From NCBI GenBank assembly GCA_003577165.1, contig QEUM01000018.1, positions 1 to 41,810 of the forward strand: a stretch of 41,810 nucleotides of DNA, given 5' to 3'. A model generated the notes under the pieces. It did no database searches, was not told where the DNA came from, and saw only the letters and a list, made by a program, of their open reading frames with translations. This DNA is from Armatimonadota bacterium. GTDB taxonomy: Bacteria > Armatimonadota > Fimbriimonadia > Fimbriimonadales > ATM1. Made by a program: the position numbers and the translations under genes. Positions 991-9,580 of this stretch are shown piece after piece. The stretch's first letter is position 1. The number at the start of each line of letters is the position of its first letter.

Positions 991-2049
991 CTACGTCAGA
1001 GGCTTTCCCTCCTGACAGATCACCTCCGCCAACTCCGAGAGTTTTCGCCCTCTCAGTTCGCATGAGCGTGAGAATGTCCACGCGCCGCCGTTCACATGGG
1101 ATTCGACCCAGTAAGCCCTTAACATCATCGTCAGGAGCGACATGACGGCCATCCCGCGAATGTGGGCGCGGTTGGGGACGAACGACGTGAACGTCGGAGT
1201 CGAGAACTTGTCCACGCTCCAACCTCCCAAGAAGTTGACCTGAGTGTTCGTCGTCAACTCTCGCTCGTTGAGCTCGAGTGCGAACTTCACAGGGTCCTTC
1301 GGCCAGTTCGGCAGCAGCAGTTGGGAGACGAGGCCGTTTCCGATCACGGGATGTGGCACGTTCGTAGCGAGTTTCACCAGGCTCGTCATGTGCAGGCATG
1401 GAAACTCAAGTTGGATGCACTCGTCGGACTGCGTCTCCAATACGCAGTGCTGTAGAAAGGATGAGCGTTCGAATTCCGAGTAGGCCTCCTCGATCTCGTC
1501 AGCGCCGCAGGCGGCAGGTTGATTGCCCGCCGCCTTGTACGGATCGAGACCTTTCTTGAATAGGTCCAGGTCCCCCTCGATGAGACCGAGCCTCGGGTGG
1601 GGGGCCTCGGCGACTGCGAGCCCAACCGACGCAAGTTCATCTTTCGTTGGCGTGAGCACCGCGATCTCGGCCGGCTGCACGGAGGCGGCAATCAAGAAGT
1701 GCTCGAGCATACATGGATCGCCAGCGGCGGCGAAGTAGACGCTGCAAGCGAGTTGGAGTCTCGACGGGTCATCCGGACTGCGCACGATGCCGCTGAAGAT
1801 GGTCTGCGGCATGATTCTCCTGAGAAGTGTGCACTGCTCGTCTGATCCCGTGAATCCACTGAGGAAGTCGGTGCGAGCGTGGAGGCGCGAGATCTCCACT
1901 TCGCCCACCATGAAGGGCGCGTCTGCCCACGCCGTGAGCCGGAGCGGTCCGTGCCAAACTGCGAATCCGCGAGGTCCTTCGACGAGTGTGGAGGGATTTG
2001 TAACCCGGCTCTTGCAGCGTTCGATGGCGGAGATTCCGATGTCGCTCAT
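991..2049 (-). CDS. Hypothetical protein, 352 aa
   Basis: No family recognised. The protein looks soluble, with no signal peptide and only short hydrophobic stretches. It has an acidic middle (EGDLDLFKKG, GADEIEEAYSEFERS) and several scattered cysteines that form no obvious metal motif. The ATG at 2049 overlaps the TGA of the upstream gene by four bases (ATGA), indicating translational coupling and probably a joint function. Composition and codon use look like those of a real gene. The C-terminus ends in a basic/hydrophobic stretch (SCELRGRKLSELAEVICQ). It is part of an unidentified four-gene minus-strand run. Confidence 0.7.
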   Translation of the reverse strand: MSDIGISAIERCKSRVTNPSTLVEGPRGFAVWHGPLRLTAWADAPFMVGEVEISRLHARTDFLSGFTGSDEQCTLLRRIMPQTIFSGIVRSPDDPSRLQLACSVYFAAAGDPCMLEHFLIAASVQPAEIAVLTPTKDELASVGLAVAEAPHPRLGLIEGDLDLFKKGLDPYKAAGNQPAACGADEIEEAYSEFERSSFLQHCVLETQSDECIQLEFPCLHMTSLVKLATNVPHPVIGNGLVSQLLLPNWPKDPVKFALELNERELTTNTQVNFLGGWSVDKFSTPTFTSFVPNRAHIRGMAVMSLLTMMLRAYWVESHVNGGAWTFSRSCELRGRKLSELAEVICQEGKPLT

Positions 2050-2903
2050 GAGGCCACCTCGAGGTTATCGGAGCCGGATTGCGTCGTAGTTCGAGCAGGC
2101 GCCGAACTGTCGAAGTAAGCGTTGACTGCTCGCTCGAGGTACTGCGGGGTTCCAATCTCAGCCAGCCCCTGTCGGCTCCACGCGACGTCCAGCAGGAACG
2201 CCATCGCTTCGCTGTCGATTACGTCCGACGCTCCATAAAAATGGAACGGTCCCCTGTGACAGTGGTCGCGCAGCCACTCGCATCGCGACGCCAACAGGTG
2301 GAACGAAGCGGATTGCAGGTCCAGAACTTCGCTCTGCACGGCGGCGAGCGGAACGATCAACTTGCGACGTCTGCGCCTTGTCGCCTGAGGAGCGAACGCC
2401 CAAAGAACCCATGTGCCGCTCTTCCGGCCTTCGGAAACGTGCCACGTCTCGCGGTAAGGTTGTGCGCCCGGAAGTTCCCACTCACCATAGCCGATGGAGA
2501 CTGTGCTAACAACCACCGGGTTCGGTATGAGAGGGTGAGTCACCTTGCCTTCGGCCCAACCAACTCCGTCGATCGCTTCGATGCTGTCGAGGAGCGGCCG
2601 ATCAACCCAAGGGAAGTCCACTTCAGAGAACTTGTTCTTCTTCAGAAGTTCTTCGAAGGCGGTCTGGCCGAGAAGCACGGCAGAGCGAAAGAACGCGAAG
2701 AACCACTCTGCGTGAGACGAAAAGGACTCTCGCGGCGGCACCGGCGTGCAGTGACAAGCCTCCACGAAGCACCAGGGGCGCCGTTTCCTCCCAGGAATCT
2801 TGTAAGCGCGGATGGCCTCCAACGCTTCGCTTGCGACGTATTCGATTCGTTCGGGCGGGCAGTCCTTGCGGAACTGCTCGAATTCCGAGTTCTCGTAGAT
2901 CAT
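2046..2903 (-). CDS. Hypothetical protein, 285 aa, coupled to the next gene
   Basis: No family recognised. The open frame extends further upstream, but the ATG at 2903 has a strong Shine-Dalgarno (GGAGGC, seven bases away), whereas the extra N-terminal residues look like untranslated leader. The protein is rich in Trp, His and Cys in its first third (RPWCFVEACHC) and has a strongly basic patch (QATRRRRRKL) near residue 180. No transmembrane helix is obvious. It overlaps the next gene by ATGA. A consensus -10 element lies about 220 bases upstream, so it is probably the first gene of the unit that runs to the left edge. Confidence 0.7.
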   Translation of the reverse strand: MIYENSEFEQFRKDCPPERIEYVASEALEAIRAYKIPGRKRRPWCFVEACHCTPVPPRESFSSHAEWFFAFFRSAVLLGQTAFEELLKKNKFSEVDFPWVDRPLLDSIEAIDGVGWAEGKVTHPLIPNPVVVSTVSIGYGEWELPGAQPYRETWHVSEGRKSGTWVLWAFAPQATRRRRRKLIVPLAAVQSEVLDLQSASFHLLASRCEWLRDHCHRGPFHFYGASDVIDSEAMAFLLDVAWSRQGLAEIGTPQYLERAVNAYFDSSAPARTTTQSGSDNLEVAS

Positions 2904-3123
2904 TGTTTGCCTCCAATTGCGAACTGATTTCAGGCATCGCAAGAGGCCCAACAAAGCACGAAGCCGCCGGCAGTGAACTGCGGGCGGCCCCAAAAACCTC
3001 GTCGCACAAGACTCCTTATTTCAGGTTGATCCTGCACATCGAGCCTTCTCGGCTCCTGGCACCGTGGCGGTCTTTTCGCTCGGTTGCCGGGCCCTCTTTC
3101 GGGCCGCTCTTGATGCTGCGTGC

Positions 3124-3129
3124 ATTATA
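3124..3129 (-). promoter_or_regulatory. Consensus -10 box for the 2903-to-1 unit
   Basis: The minus strand reads TATAAT here, a perfect match to the sigma-70-type -10 consensus, inside an AT-rich spot of an otherwise GC-rich gap. No good -35 is found at the expected distance. Initiation would lie near 3117 and give a leader of about 210 nt with two small hairpins (around 3042-3056 and 3090-3105). The element sits just past the stop of the phosphatase-fold gene, so it would separate that module from the hypothetical genes. Confidence 0.45.
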
Positions 3130-3177
3130 CCACACGCCGTCCGAAAACGGGAAACCTTTTTGTCGGCTCCGCCCGAT

Positions 3178-4680
3178 TCAGCGCACACGGTCGGTGACGT
3201 CGGTGAAGACGAAGGGGCGGTTGTGAGTGGAGTAGTAGGCCCTCGCCGGCCGCAACGGCAGGTCGAGGCCCAGCAGGTCGGAGGCGATGATGCGAAACGT
3301 GTTGACCGGCGCTAGTTCGTCCGTGAGTCGCGCGCGGATGGAATCCGGAACGAGCAGCGCGTTCAGGATCGAGAACGCCTCCTTAAGGTCGGTCTTCTCG
3401 AGACTCTCCATGTCGAATCCGACTTTCGAACCGTGGTCCCCCTGGAGGATGATGATCGGCGGGTCCGGATGGCCCGCGAGGAGTCTGTCGATCATCTGAA
3501 GGAGACGGCGGTTGATGAACGTCGCCTGGTCGGCGTAGCCTTCCTTGTACTGGTCCGCGGTGATGCCGTTCAATAGCAGGCTCGCGTCGGCGATCGTGTA
3601 GCCGCCGAGGCGCTTGCCCGGGTTCCCATCTCGGTCGAAGGCAAAGGGCGGACGCGGGCCGAGAATGTGGACGAAGACGAGCCTCGGAGTTGCCGCCGGC
3701 TTGTCCAACTCTTCGAGGGTCTCGAACGCGGTGAGCGCCCGGTTTCTGTGCGCGTCGAACAGGGACTCGACCGCCCGCTGGGTCGCGCCGAACGGCGTCA
3801 TCTGCAGAAGGTACGTCTCAAGGAGCGTGAGGCCGGGGCGGTTCACCACGGAGAGATCGTCGGTTGCGAAAGGCACGCCCGGAAACCCGCTTCCGATGCC
3901 CATAACTCGGTAGCCGCATGACCGAAACGCGCTCGCGACTGCGCTTTCCCGGATCCCGTTCACGATGGGCGTGCGGTCATCGGAGTTCTTGTCGAGTTTC
4001 GGCAAGAGCGACTGAATGTAGTCCATGTTCACGGATGAGAACACGGACAATTGTGTTTGGCAGTAGTTCGGCACGCTTCTCTTCGCGATGAAGAAGCCGC
4101 GCTTTTCGAGTTCCTCGATGAAATCTCGGTTCGAGTAGCCGAGCGCGCGCTCGAGTTGATCGGTTCTCCCATAGCCGTCGAGGACGATGTAATAGATGTC
4201 GGGGAGGTTTTCCTTCGGCTTCGCATTTGCCGCCACTTGAGAGCGCTCCGCAGCCGCGGCGCGCGAGACGGAGTTCCGCGCGTATGTCACTTGGCCGACT
4301 GCGACGGCCGTCATCGCCAGGGCCAAAACGTTGAAGCCGCGAAGGACGCGAACCTTCCACGCGGCGAGCGCCATCAGCAACAGAGACGCGATCAGCCAAT
4401 ATAAAAGCGCCGTAGACGACTCTGTCTCGCTGCTCACCCAGCCGGCAAAGGTGGAGTAAGCGTAAAGGGCAAGGATGGCGACGAGGGCGGCGGCTCCCCC
4501 CCGGACCGCGCTTCTCAGCACGAGCGACAGGACAGCCGTCAGAACTGCAGAAGCGACGACAACGACGATGACCGGACGCCACAACTGTGCAAGAGGAAAC
4601 AGGTCGGCATTCGAGGCATAGAGCGCGAGAACCGGAAGAATTGCGAAGAGCGCGGGATAGAAGGGGACGCGAGAAATCAC
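3178..4680 (-). CDS. Membrane-anchored sulfatase / alkaline-phosphatase-superfamily protein
   Basis: 500 residues. The N-terminal third carries about four transmembrane helices (residues 8-30, 36-56, 62-80, 92-130). A soluble domain follows that should face outward. Superfamily hallmarks: the first metal-binding Asp in IYYIVLDGYGR (D168), a likely nucleophile Thr in NYCQTQLS (T209), a His in FVHILGPRPPF (H338) and the second metal pair in LQGDHGSK (D415, H416). Members of this superfamily hydrolyse or transfer sulfate, phosphate or phosphoglycerol/phosphoethanolamine groups; the exact substrate is not readable. Its ATG overlaps the upstream kinase/methyltransferase gene by four bases, so the two are made together. 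A transferase acting on a surface polymer is plausible but is inference. Confidence 0.8.
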   Translation of the reverse strand: MISRVPFYPALFAILPVLALYASNADLFPLAQLWRPVIVVVVASAVLTAVLSLVLRSAVRGGAAALVAILALYAYSTFAGWVSSETESSTALLYWLIASLLLMALAAWKVRVLRGFNVLALAMTAVAVGQVTYARNSVSRAAAAERSQVAANAKPKENLPDIYYIVLDGYGRTDQLERALGYSNRDFIEELEKRGFFIAKRSVPNYCQTQLSVFSSVNMDYIQSLLPKLDKNSDDRTPIVNGIRESAVASAFRSCGYRVMGIGSGFPGVPFATDDLSVVNRPGLTLLETYLLQMTPFGATQRAVESLFDAHRNRALTAFETLEELDKPAATPRLVFVHILGPRPPFAFDRDGNPGKRLGGYTIADASLLLNGITADQYKEGYADQATFINRRLLQMIDRLLAGHPDPPIIILQGDHGSKVGFDMESLEKTDLKEAFSILNALLVPDSIRARLTDELAPVNTFRIIASDLLGLDLPLRPARAYYSTHNRPFVFTDVTDRVR

Positions 4681-6059
4681 GCCGCGCGACGCCTCATCAA
4701 ATACAGTGTTCGATGAGAGTTCTGAATGGCATCGCGCTGAAGGATCTCATACTCCCGACCGAACGCCGCTTCGAAAGACGCGGCATCGTAATCCGGGAAA
4801 ACGTCTTCGCGACTCTGCAGCATGCGCTGAACTTGCGAGTCCTCTTTCGCGACGAATTCGATTACCAGCCATTCGCCGAGTTCTGCGAGGAGGGAAGCGA
4901 TTCGCGGCAGCGGAACGTTGTTCCCGATCGCGAGGTGGTGCACAAGCGCGAGGCATAGGATGACGTCGACAGGTCCCCGACGCATAAGGCCGTCTCTCTC
5001 TTCAAGCGCCCACCCGATGTCCGGCGAAGGATTGGTGAGGTCCTGAACGAGAGGCAGAATCCTCTGCTCTCCCGCCGCTTTGACTCTCTCATACGCAATG
5101 TCGACGGCAAGAGGATCGAGGTCCCAAGCGACGGTGTTGAGCCCGGCTTCGCTGGCGATCTTGCTGAATTCACCGGTGTTCGCGCCGAGGTCCCAGCAAG
5201 TTTGTGGCAGCGGAGCGATGCGGGCGACATGCCGAGCGACGAGTTCGCGCTTGTGCTGCATGGCGCGCTTCGAGTAGTTGGTCTGGCTGTAGTATTCGCT
5301 CCACGTCGAAGGGCGACGCGGAAGCCGCAGGCTCAGAATCGTGCTGCGAAGGTTGTGGAGAAGAGCCTTCAGCGCAAAGCGGCTCACCTTTGCAGAGCGC
5401 GGGCTGTCGGAGGGGGGGCGCGCAACGGCCTTTCCGTGGAGACGAAGGTGCGTCACGAGTCCCGGCCGAAGCCAACTCGAGTTGGGCAGCATGCGCGAAG
5501 CGAGATCCACCGGGATGCCGTCGAGAAACGCGCGCGACAATTGCCCGATACGGGCGTCAACGGTGCTCATCAACGCGAGCGGCGCAAGGAAATGCTGACA
5601 GAACTGGCGATATGCAATCCACGGCTTGCCCTCTTCGTAAAGATCGAAACTCAGCGTGTCGATGAAGATGGGCTTGCCGCGCAGAAACTGGACGTTGTAC
5701 GCGCTGGCGTCCTTCAGGATCATGTCATTCTCAAGCGCAATGGATGCGATCTCGAGTGTGAGAAGCGCAGCGTCCTTGAGTTGCGAGAAAGACCATTCGT
5801 AGGGGTACGAGATGAACGGCACGGCCTCCGGCTGCAGGACATCGATCGCATCCGGAGCTTGGGCGTAACTCGTACCGATACGCTCCGCGTGAATCAGCAG
5901 GCCACGCGAAACGAGGTCGTCATAAAGCCCGGAATCCAGCAGCCGCCGGAATTGTTCTTCGTACGACTTGTTGACTTGGCGCAGCAAAACGCCATCGCGC
6001 ACGAAGATGAAGCCGCTCGGATCGCGGAACGAAGATGCTTGAACGCCGAAGGTCTTCAG
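4677..6059 (-). CDS. Kinase-fold-like domain fused to class I SAM methyltransferase
   Basis: About 460 residues from the proposed CTG start at 6059 (441 from the GTG at 6002). The C-terminal half is a class I methyltransferase: motif I DLGANTGEF near residue 290, the acidic end of beta-2 in AWDLDP, then LCLALVHHL. The N-terminal half resembles an aminoglycoside-phosphotransferase/LicA-type kinase: a G-loop-like DPSGFIF, a hinge-like PFISYPYEW, a long helix, a catalytic-loop-like LKDASAYN (Asp and Asn five apart, D117/N122) and IDTLSF in place of DFG (D134). The upstream start is favoured because SSFRDPSGF precedes the GTG in frame and the CTG overlaps the preceding stop as CTGA. It is coupled to the phosphatase-fold gene downstream. 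The methyltransferase is confident; the kinase reading is my own inference. Confidence 0.75.
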   Translation of the reverse strand: MKTFGVQASSFRDPSGFIFVRDGVLLRQVNKSYEEQFRRLLDSGLYDDLVSRGLLIHAERIGTSYAQAPDAIDVLQPEAVPFISYPYEWSFSQLKDAALLTLEIASIALENDMILKDASAYNVQFLRGKPIFIDTLSFDLYEEGKPWIAYRQFCQHFLAPLALMSTVDARIGQLSRAFLDGIPVDLASRMLPNSSWLRPGLVTHLRLHGKAVARPPSDSPRSAKVSRFALKALLHNLRSTILSLRLPRRPSTWSEYYSQTNYSKRAMQHKRELVARHVARIAPLPQTCWDLGANTGEFSKIASEAGLNTVAWDLDPLAVDIAYERVKAAGEQRILPLVQDLTNPSPDIGWALEERDGLMRRGPVDVILCLALVHHLAIGNNVPLPRIASLLAELGEWLVIEFVAKEDSQVQRMLQSREDVFPDYDAASFEAAFGREYEILQRDAIQNSHRTLYLMRRRAA

Positions 6060-6265
6060 GGTTCAGATCGCTTGCCGTCGCTGGGTCTCTTTCGATTAAA
6101 GAGTGATTTCAGCCGATTCCAACTCGATGCGAAGAAAAAGGCGCCAGTAAGGAGCCCGCCGAGAGTCGCTTGAAACAGCATGCTCCCGGTTCCTCCGTCT
6201 ACGTATCCTAACGGAGTCGGCAGGTTCGATAGGTCTGGGAAGATAGGCACGCCAGATGGACGCAA
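6056..6265 (-). CDS. Tiny membrane protein with YVDGGTGS motif
   Basis: About 69 residues from a TTG at 6265; a GTG at 6250 is an alternative. It contains YVDGGTGSMLFQ followed by one hydrophobic helix (ATLGGLLTGAFFFASSW) and a basic tail (RLKSLFNRKRPSDGKR). Small proteins with a Y-(I/V)-D-x-GTGS motif and a single helix are commonly found beside sulfatase-like and methyltransferase genes in envelope loci, as here. Its stop overlaps the proposed CTG start of the next gene. Role unknown; a membrane scaffold for the two following enzymes is plausible. Confidence 0.65.
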   Translation of the reverse strand: MRPSGVPIFPDLSNLPTPLGYVDGGTGSMLFQATLGGLLTGAFFFASSWNRLKSLFNRKRPSDGKRSEP

Positions 6266-6907: not shown

Positions 6908-9580
6908 GTGAATCGCGTCACAGTAGACGGAGCGGAAGTCCGGGTGCCGAAAGGCAGCACGGCTCTCGACGCCGCGCGCGCGGTCGGCATCGACATTCCA
7001 ACTCTATGCCATGACGACCGCGTGTCGCCCTCCACGGCCTGCCGCGTGTGCTTGGTGGAGGTGGAGGGCTTCGCGAGGCCGGTTGCCGCGTGCGGATTCG
7101 AGGTGTGCGATGGCAGCGTCGTGCGCACGAACACAGCCTCGATTCGCCGCGCGAGGGAGGGAGTGCTCAGGTTCCTGGCGCGCGAATATCCGATGGCGGA
7201 AGCGCGCGCGTATCCGGAGAAGCCCTTTCACAAACTGCTCGCCGAGTACCAACTCATCAATGAGCGCAACGGGGAGATCGCGACATCGCTCGTCGACGAC
7301 TCGAATCCGTACTTCGTTTTCAATCCTGCGGCGTGCATCGAATGCTACAAGTGCGTAAAGATCTGCGACGAAGTCGAAGGGGCTTTCGTATGGCAGATCG
7401 TCGGGAAGAGAGGCGAATCGCGAGTCGTTCCGGACTCGCTTTCCACGCTTGCGCAAAGCAGCTGCAAGAGTTGTGGCGCTTGCGTCGAAGGTTGCCCGAC
7501 GTCGGCCTTGCTCGACAAAACTCGCATCGAGTCCGGGGTTCCGGACGCATGGAAGCGCACGACCTGTCCTTACTGCGGAGTCGGCTGCGAACTGTTCGCA
7601 GGAACGAAGAACGGCAGGCTGATCCAATCTCTTCCAGTTCGCGATGCACCCGTGAACAAAGGGCACTTGTGCGTGAAGGGAAGGTATGCCCACCAGTACG
7701 TGCACGCGGATGACCGAATCACGAAGCCGATGATTCGGAGGGGGGGCGAGTTCGTCGAGGTCTCGTGGGACGAGGCCCTGGAACTGGTTGCCTCGCGATT
7801 CCGGGAGATGCGCGACGCAAACGGTCCGGACTCCATCGGAGTCTTGGGCTCCGCGCGCGCGCCGAACGAAGACAACTACGTGACACAGAAATTCGCCCGC
7901 GTGGTCATCGGAACGAACAACGTGGACTGCTGCGCTAGGGTGTGTCACGCGCCGACAGGCACGGCCATGAAGCAACTCCTCGGCACAGGCGCGGCCACCA
8001 ACTCCTACGACGACATCGAAGTCGCGAAGACGATTCTCGTCTCCGGAAGCAACCCGACCGAAAACCACCCGATCGTCGGCGAACGAATCAAGCAGGCCGC
8101 TCTCAAAGGGGCGAAACTCATCGTCGTCGATCCTCGAAAGATCGAGTTGGCGCGGTTCGCCGAAGTGCATCTTCAAATCCACCCAGGAACCAACGTTCCG
8201 CTCTACAACGCGATGGCCAACGTGCTGCTCGAGGAAGGGCTGTACGACAAGGAATTCGCGGAGCGCCGAATCGCGGAGATGGACGAGTTCCGACAGGCTG
8301 TGTCGGAATGGACTGCAGAGAAAGCGGCGGAGGTCTGCGGCGTGAGCGCCGAGGACATCCGTCGAGCGTCGCGCCTGTTTGCTACGCACACGCCTGCGAT
8401 GAGCGTGCACGGCCTCGGAATGACCGAGCACCTCCAGGGAACTGAGGGGGTGATGTGTCTCGTGAACTTGGCGCTGCTCACCGGCAACATCGGCAAGCCG
8501 GGCGCCGGGGTCAATCCGCTCCGCGGTCAAAACAACGTTCAGGGTTCAGGGCACATGGGATGCGAGCCGAGGAGCCTCACAGGGTTCGTTCCGCTCACCG
8601 ATGCCGCTGCGAAATTCTCCGCGAGGTGGGGGGTCCAAGTGTCGGACCGACCGGGCCTGACTTCAATGGAAATGCTGGATGCCGCGCGGGATGGAACCCT
8701 CAAGGCGATGTGGATCATCGGATACGACCTGTATCTGTCGAATCCCAACGCGGCCGAATCACGCGAAGCGTTCGAGCAGATGGAGTTCGTCGTCGTTCAA
8801 GACATGTTCATGAACGAAACTGCGCGCGAGTTCGCTCACGTCTTCCTACCCGCGGCTTCGTCGTTCGAGCGTGAGGGTACGTTCATGAACGCGGAGCGAA
8901 GAGTTCAGCTGATCCGCAAAGTCATCGAGCCGCCGGGAGAGGCCAAGTCCGACTGGGAGATCGTTCAGGAAGTCGCTAACCGGATGGGATACCAAGAAGG
9001 GTTTGCATTCACGTCCGCCGAGGAAATCTGGGACGAGGTTCGCGAACTCTGGCCCGAGGGCGCGGGCCTCAGTTACAGGAGGCTTCGCGTCGAGGGAATT
9101 CAATGGCCGTGCCCGGACGAAGACCATCCCGGCACAAAGGTCATGCACACCGAGGAGTTCCCGTTTGGCGTCAAGACCAAACTTCGGGCGATTCCATACA
9201 TCCCGACTCCCGAAGTGACCGACGAGCGGTTCCCAATGCTGCTGAACACAGGAAGAAACCTGTATCAATTCAACGCAGCCACGATGACGGATCGCACGAA
9301 GAATCGAGAGATTCGCCCGACCGACACGCTCGACATTCATCCGGAGGATGCCAAGCGGCTCGGCATCCGGAGCGGCTCGAAGGTTCGAATCGTGAGCCGT
9401 TACGGTGATGCCGAGATCGGCGTTCGTCTGGACTCAAGGGTTCGTCGCGGTGAACTCTTCGCCACCTTCCACGACGCCAGGATTCTGCTCAATCGCGTGA
9501 CGAGCAACGTTCGCGACCGAAAAGTCAAATCGCCGGAATACAAGGTGACGGCGGTGCGCGTCGAGCCAATTTCTAACTGA
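6908..9580 (+). CDS. fdhA: Formate dehydrogenase catalytic (alpha) subunit, Mo/W-bis-MGD, Cys form
   Basis: 890 residues; oxidises formate to CO2 in the cytoplasm (no Tat signal). Domains in order: an N-terminal 2Fe-2S ferredoxin-like domain (C34, C45, C48, C62); two 4Fe-4S clusters (C143/146/149/153 and C186/189/192/196); then the molybdopterin domain with its own 4Fe-4S ligands C220, C223, C227, C255 and K257. C346 in CCARVCH occupies the position of selenocysteine in E. coli FdhF, followed by the conserved His. The C-terminal dinucleotide-binding domain spans roughly 770-885. The His-ligated cluster often found between the ferredoxin and 4Fe-4S parts seems absent. The start is a GTG with GAGAGAAG upstream. 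No diaphorase subunit, fdhD or cofactor gene lies nearby, so its electron partner is elsewhere. It ends with an 8-bp convergent overlap. Confidence 0.9.
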   Translation: MNRVTVDGAEVRVPKGSTALDAARAVGIDIPTLCHDDRVSPSTACRVCLVEVEGFARPVAACGFEVCDGSVVRTNTASIRRAREGVLRFLAREYPMAEARAYPEKPFHKLLAEYQLINERNGEIATSLVDDSNPYFVFNPAACIECYKCVKICDEVEGAFVWQIVGKRGESRVVPDSLSTLAQSSCKSCGACVEGCPTSALLDKTRIESGVPDAWKRTTCPYCGVGCELFAGTKNGRLIQSLPVRDAPVNKGHLCVKGRYAHQYVHADDRITKPMIRRGGEFVEVSWDEALELVASRFREMRDANGPDSIGVLGSARAPNEDNYVTQKFARVVIGTNNVDCCARVCHAPTGTAMKQLLGTGAATNSYDDIEVAKTILVSGSNPTENHPIVGERIKQAALKGAKLIVVDPRKIELARFAEVHLQIHPGTNVPLYNAMANVLLEEGLYDKEFAERRIAEMDEFRQAVSEWTAEKAAEVCGVSAEDIRRASRLFATHTPAMSVHGLGMTEHLQGTEGVMCLVNLALLTGNIGKPGAGVNPLRGQNNVQGSGHMGCEPRSLTGFVPLTDAAAKFSARWGVQVSDRPGLTSMEMLDAARDGTLKAMWIIGYDLYLSNPNAAESREAFEQMEFVVVQDMFMNETAREFAHVFLPAASSFEREGTFMNAERRVQLIRKVIEPPGEAKSDWEIVQEVANRMGYQEGFAFTSAEEIWDEVRELWPEGAGLSYRRLRVEGIQWPCPDEDHPGTKVMHTEEFPFGVKTKLRAIPYIPTPEVTDERFPMLLNTGRNLYQFNAATMTDRTKNREIRPTDTLDIHPEDAKRLGIRSGSKVRIVSRYGDAEIGVRLDSRVRRGELFATFHDARILLNRVTSNVRDRKVKSPEYKVTAVRVEPISN

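Follow-up and report, generated by a model that had tools for sequence, protein, structure and literature searches.

A NoeA-type kinase-methyltransferase fusion, its phosphatase-fold membrane partner and an overlooked small protein in an Armatimonadota bacterium

What might be made or modified by three adjoining minus-strand genes that encode, in order, a small protein with a single putative membrane segment, a fusion of a kinase-like domain with a methyltransferase, and a membrane enzyme of the phosphatase fold? These genes occupy positions 3178-6265 of a 41,810-nucleotide stretch of DNA from an Armatimonadota bacterium (contig QEUM01000018.1 of assembly GCA_003577165.1; that entire stretch is referred to here as the window), and a preliminary description of it suggested that their products could terminate a surface polysaccharide, in the manner of the Escherichia coli O8/O9a O-antigen terminator WbdD. 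The analysis reported here identified the fusion as a member of the NoeA (Lani_1194) family, for which the pairing of a kinase-methyltransferase with a phosphatase-fold enzyme has already been published as a prediction (PMC9758233), and the small protein (hereafter the mini-protein) as a near-constant partner of the fusion that has been overlooked in the searchable literature.

The fusion and the NoeA family

The N-terminal half of the fusion was assigned to no family by sequence searches of Pfam, NCBIfam, PHROGs and the PDB, and its kinase nature is visible from a structure model alone. Because a structure search with the full-length AlphaFold2 (AF2) model (mean predicted local distance difference test score, pLDDT, of 89.7) returned only matches to the methyltransferase part, residues 1-245 were modelled (pLDDT 90.5) and searched separately. 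The best 50 PDB matches returned by Foldseek were all kinases or pseudokinases (including PknG at 3.6e-5 and AmiN at 1.4e-4), and the best 50 returned by VIA-align were exclusively kinase-fold chains (top Z of 10.1 over 201 residues, with a root-mean-square deviation of 4.2), such that the unrelated fold that would have spoken against the preliminary description did not appear. The template modelling (TM) scores of these matches were near 0.4, which indicates that the modelled kinase fold is divergent. The features from which that description had proposed a phosphotransferase active site were likewise present: the LKDASAYN segment (an Asp, with an Asn at +5), the IDTLSF segment, and, in the AF2 model, a long helix (residues 92-111) preceded by a hinge-like stretch. 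An alignment of 58 relatives from many phyla further established that D118, N123 and D135 (formerly numbered D117, N122 and D134, the query protein used here being one residue longer) are invariant, as is R28, so that the second observation that would have counted against the preliminary description, a lack of conservation at the three positions, did not appear either. The domain is thus modelled with a protein-kinase-like fold, and is predicted to carry out phosphotransfer dependent upon adenosine triphosphate (ATP).

The C-terminal half, previously read as a methyltransferase dependent upon S-adenosylmethionine (SAM), was borne out as such by structural matches and by Pfam matches (Methyltransf_12/23) that fall below the cut-off, and it displays motif I (as D291-x-G) together with an HH pair that is invariant. 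Its best structural matches were NodS (Z of 18.6), MePCE (18.1), ChlM (18.0) and BCDIN3D (17.4), which are in effect ties, and WbdD was the third-ranked Foldseek match to the full-length model. MePCE, BCDIN3D and WbdD methylate phosphates, and their presence among the matches fits the neighboring kinase domain without proving that the modelled enzyme methylates a phosphate; unrelated methyltransferases score equally to MePCE and BCDIN3D against the same domain.

The family to which this architecture belongs was described in a 2022 survey of Legionella kinases (PMC9758233), which presents Lani_1194 as a NoeA homologue with a kinase fold and an arginine in place of the catalytic lysine, reports a methyltransferase in 94% of approximately two thousand homologues, and places an alkaline-phosphatase-fold neighbor (NoeB/Lani_1195) beside the kinase-methyltransferase (Lani_1194/NoeA). 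The window fusion shares that order of domains and that neighbor (the gene at window positions 3178-4680); the counterparts of D166, N171 and D184 are D118, N123 and D135, and the arginine that replaces K72 is probably R28, all of them invariant in the 58 sequences. The accessible portion of the survey does not describe a mini-protein partner for Lani_1194, whereas the window fusion has one. NoeA from Sinorhizobium meliloti is homologous to the window fusion over its full length (36% identity over 98% of the length), and shares with it the SFRDPSG motif and the R28, D118, N123 and D135 positions, while NoeB from the same organism is a relative of the window's phosphatase-fold enzyme.

According to several reports, noeA and noeB have been recognized since 1995 as host-range genes for Medicago (Ardourel et al., cited in PMC9758233), lie in the nodL operon (PMC9758233, PMC9048898, PMC4053727), and have been hypothesized to act in the modification of Nod factors (PMC9048898). 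That history, together with the position of NodS as the best structural match to the methyltransferase, raises the question of whether the unit tailors a Nod-factor-like or other secreted small molecule, modifying a soluble or lipid-linked signal before its export. We regard this as quite improbable, given that the NodS match is a tie and that the family is spread through non-symbiotic phyla and archaea, so that nodulation would represent a local co-option. Relatives of the fusion were found in 55 of the 291 Armatimonadota genomes searched (most at approximately 47-57% identity) and are widespread beyond that phylum, including in Methanoculleus archaea; in contrast to NoeA and NoeB, the window module lies outside any nod operon, in a member of the Armatimonadota.

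The conservation of the three genes as a set, which the preliminary description had proposed to examine, was also confirmed, as the same gene order recurs in distant phyla. Since it is found in the S. meliloti nod operon as well, and since the catalytic residues are invariant among the 58 relatives, the module is not a product of chance.

The mini-protein partner

The mini-protein in the window carries the sequence YVDGGTGS and matches a profile built from its relatives with an E-value of 3e-15. Across 101 such sequences the family motif, Y-x-D-P-G-S/T-G-S-x3-Q, is near-invariant (Y in 100, D in 101, S in 100 and Q in 101), and no description of it was found in the open-access papers searched. 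An AtpR/N-ATPase identity was considered for this protein and set aside, as the match (E-value of 0.008) was below the cut-off and the conserved motif gave it no support. A hydrophobic stretch ending in AxA, similar to a signal peptide, immediately precedes the motif tyrosine in 62 of 106 mini-proteins, and lysine and arginine residues are concentrated after the membrane segment (5.6, versus 0.3 around the motif); because positive charge follows the membrane segment and AxA precedes the tyrosine, these patterns suggest that the motif lies outside, in the periplasm, and the basic tail inside, in the cytoplasm.

Within the Armatimonadota sample the mini-protein was present in 53 of the 55 genomes that bear the fusion and in only 1 of the 236 that do not; in six of the genomes that contain both, the two genes were not within 5 kb of one another on one contig. 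A sample of Gammaproteobacteria gave a similar picture, with the mini-protein present in 11 of 11 fusion-bearing genomes and in seven further genomes in which no fusion was detected, one of which retains an adjacent fusion-like fragment. At locus L173 (positions 4935-5349; such L-numbers are the locus labels of this analysis) a diverged mini-protein is followed by a 55-residue piece of a fusion-like N-terminus, probably as a decayed copy.

The corresponding protein in S. meliloti had been present in the nod operon throughout: the gene order there is nodL, a 71-residue hypothetical protein, noeA and noeB, and that hypothetical protein (MPII...AHAYLDPGTGSMLVQ) belongs to the mini-protein family. 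Its gene, unnamed and located between nodL and noeA on pSymA (L031, positions 7760-7975), is possibly a missed nodulation gene. A comparison between two rhizobia gave a nonsynonymous rate of 0.058 and a synonymous rate of 0.249, and the former being approximately one-quarter of the latter, it behaves as a real gene under selection.

Mini-proteins that occur without the fusion usually adjoin a phosphatase-fold enzyme (L147, L149, L150, L152, L153, L166, L167, L170 and L174). At L152, in a genome (G285) in which the fusion was not detected, a phosphatase-fold enzyme paired with a mini-protein occurs twice in tandem, and a phosphodiesterase-type enzyme of family PF01663 follows. In two further loci (L171, positions 123-1448, and L172, positions 2216-3589) the motif and membrane segment form the N-terminus of a protein of the CDP-glycerol glycerophosphotransferase family (PF04464, with E-values of 1e-14 and 7e-10), and in L166, L167 and L169 a PF04464 protein is encoded separately, near the mini-protein. 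Such a junction, at the C-terminal side of the mini-protein, is what would be expected of a module that anchors a phosphotransferase to the membrane, and the fusions point to a membrane module common to phosphate-transferring enzymes, with its C-terminal side cytoplasmic. As the motif glutamine is replaced by serine, threonine or tyrosine in the PF04464-fused forms and in several of the fusion-free forms, the family may comprise two subfamilies.

Could the mini-protein instead be the substrate, such that the fusion modifies either its tail or its invariant Tyr/Asp/Ser motif, and a modified membrane peptide results once the phosphatase-fold enzyme has processed it? The extreme conservation of so short a motif exceeds what a plain anchor would need, and a YidC-type insertase is encoded in the L166, L167 and L171 clusters, as if to insert a small membrane protein (in L171, at positions 1423-3912 directly after the gene that joins mini-protein and PF04464, the YidC domain, 60KD_IMP, is itself joined to a Sulfatase/alkaline-phosphatase-fold domain). 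Nevertheless, the distribution of charge would place the motif in the periplasm, away from both ATP and SAM, and a dedicated substrate would not be expected to be joined to another enzyme, as the mini-protein is in L171 and L172; we therefore judge such a role unlikely. We give somewhat less than an even chance to the view that this protein of approximately 70 residues, with its YxDPG(S/T)GS motif, is a required subunit of NoeA-type enzymes in bacteria and some archaea, and also a membrane module shared by kinase-methyltransferases, CDP-glycerol transferases and LtaS-like enzymes.

Layout, membrane enzyme and neighborhood

The three genes were found on the minus strand as previously described, and their four-base overlaps (CTGA and GTGA; Table 1) constitute a translational coupling. 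The reading frame of the fusion contains no ATG, GTG or TTG upstream of the invariant SFRDPSG motif, and its translation therefore likely starts at the CTG at position 6059, within the overlap, which yields the same length (460 residues) as in the preliminary description; an alternative GTG at position 6002 would yield 441 residues, but would remove that motif. A recent foreign origin is unsupported by composition, as the guanine-plus-cytosine content of the module equals that of the window (0.605), and a search for a phage link found no match among 50,697 phage records.

Table 1. Coordinates of the module and its functional elements in the window
Feature	Position	Strand	Basis or remark
Mini-protein gene, 69 aa, TTG start	6056..6265	-	Carries YVDGGTGSMLFQ as its motif; a single weak membrane segment and a basic tail at the C-terminus
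CTGA overlap, mini-protein stop and probable CTG start of fusion	6056..6059	-	CTG start inferred
NoeA-family kinase-methyltransferase fusion, 460 aa	4677..6059	-	Homology to NoeA; AF2 model, pLDDT 89.7
N-terminal kinase-like domain, residues 2-245	5328..6059	-	AF2 pLDDT 90.5; Foldseek and VIA-align matches
R28, invariant, probable counterpart of ATP-binding lysine	5979..5981	-	Equivalence inferred from PMC9758233 (R38 of Lani_1194)
D118, catalytic Asp	5709..5711	-	Invariant in 58 sequences
N123, metal-binding Asn of catalytic loop	5694..5696	-	Invariant in 58 sequences
D135, equivalent of DFG Asp	5658..5660	-	Invariant in 58 sequences
C-terminal class I SAM methyltransferase domain, residues 250-461	4680..5315	-	Pfam below cut-off; structural matches
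GTGA overlap, fusion stop and GTG start of phosphatase-fold enzyme	4677..4680	-	Sequence
NoeB-like alkaline-phosphatase-superfamily membrane enzyme, 500 aa, GTG start	3178..4680	-	PF00884 homologues, catalytic residues, hydropathy

The third gene encodes approximately five membrane segments, as judged from hydropathy, followed by a catalytic domain in which D168, T209, H338, D415 and H416, conserved in 62 close relatives, are all present. Homologues match PF00884 (Sulfatase) at 9e-7 to 2e-10, and the window copy does so at an E-value of 0.03, below the cut-off; together with the catalytic residues, these matches assign the enzyme, by sequence, to the alkaline-phosphatase superfamily. Membrane transferases of the LtaS/EptA type likewise combine membrane helices with a subsequent Asp/Thr/His/Asp-His catalytic set, and one relative is annotated as 'LTA synthase family', but unlike those transferases the enzyme matches the broad Sulfatase model only. 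Downstream of the module, at window positions 991-2993 on the same strand, are two uncharacterized open reading frames (352 and 315 residues) for which neither Pfam nor NCBIfam gave a family above the cut-off.

The surroundings of the module bear directly upon the chain termination first proposed for it, in which the fusion would cap a growing polysaccharide with a methyl phosphate and thereby set its length. WbdD likewise holds a kinase and a class I methyltransferase in one chain and ranks high among the matches to the full-length model, and methylphosphate terminators have evolved independently, in E. coli O9a (WbdD) and in Klebsiella O7 (PMC11231755). The Klebsiella protein, ORF6, displays a convergent pairing of methyltransferase and kinase, and AmiN, its closest kinase fold (PMC11231755), is among the best matches to the window kinase as well. 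In both of those terminators, however, the methyltransferase comes first (as the preliminary description had noted of WbdD); ORF6 continues with a carbohydrate-binding module, a coiled coil and glycosyltransferases (PMC11231755), and WbdD ends in a coiled coil that serves as a molecular ruler, whereas the modelled window fusion ends with its methyltransferase domain and has no such ruler. WbdD was not among the best 50 matches to the N-terminal kinase model, which is no sign that the two are unrelated; it is an analogue of the window fusion rather than its nearest relative.

The O-antigen setting in which WbdD works is not general for fusion loci. While the gene order was maintained and clear glycan clusters surround some loci (L033, L166 and L167), the expected position beside glycan genes did not hold as a rule: many loci lack evident glycan neighbors, a scan of window genes surrounding the module revealed none, and neither a conserved glycan neighborhood nor a consistent polymerase or ATP-binding cassette (ABC) exporter was found in two samples of neighboring genes. 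Glycosyltransferase family 2 was the commonest family among immediate neighbors in those samples (6 of 121 and 6 of 108), nucleotidyl transferases and sulfotransferases also occurred, and Anaerolineales loci recur beside genes for topoisomerase I and DprA. We consider chain termination a doubtful explanation.

A putative envelope-modification unit

Family membership, the two folds, the invariant catalytic residues, the overlapping gene order and the near-obligate co-occurrence of mini-protein and fusion are directly supported, and a mechanism may be proposed upon them. The fusion would act in the cytoplasm: a membrane-bound acceptor, be it a glycan, a glycolipid or a polyol, probably receives a phosphate on a hydroxyl group from the kinase, after which the methyltransferase probably adds a methyl group to the resulting product, in the simplest case to the phosphate just attached. 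The mini-protein would keep the fusion at the membrane, its motif being periplasmic and its basic tail cytoplasmic, and the NoeB-like enzyme would then act in the periplasm, transferring or removing a phosphoryl-type group. That a membrane-held kinase-methyltransferase and a periplasmic phosphatase-fold partner act in this way on an envelope glycan or glycolipid, as a NoeA/NoeB-type envelope-modification unit, is a reading that we hold at about an even chance.

Several observations weigh against it. Glycan genes flank a minority of loci, the fusion is absent from all seven other searched genomes of the window organism's family, and no substrate or activity has been reported for any family member in the accessible literature. 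The association of mini-protein and fusion in the phylum, with a Fisher p of 1.4e-54, is given by a statistic that ignores shared ancestry. Of the 46 loci with full flanks, 30 have the phosphatase-fold gene no more than 3 kb from the fusion and the other 16 lack it in the immediate neighborhood, so the enzyme is not obligatory in cis. Finally, the window copy of that enzyme has Arg343 (CGT, positions 3652-3654 on the minus strand) at a position, part of an HxxxxH pair in the active-site region, that is histidine in 61 of 62 close relatives; the codon is one base from a histidine codon, and the change may mean that the enzyme has naturally weakened or has gained a new specificity, or it may be an error of assembly.

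The locus is thus a further instance of the NoeA family, and the part of it that is worth following is the overlooked mini-protein. If the YxDPG(S/T)GS protein is indeed a subunit, then the nod n5 operon of S. meliloti would hold an overlooked host-range gene. While noeA and noeB are without demonstrated chemistry in the accessible literature, a third and near-invariant partner, together with its fusion to PF04464, leaves a narrower field to search, namely phosphate chemistry at the inner membrane; and as the unit is present in many phyla, the solution of that chemistry would cover a broad and uncharacterized class of envelope modification.

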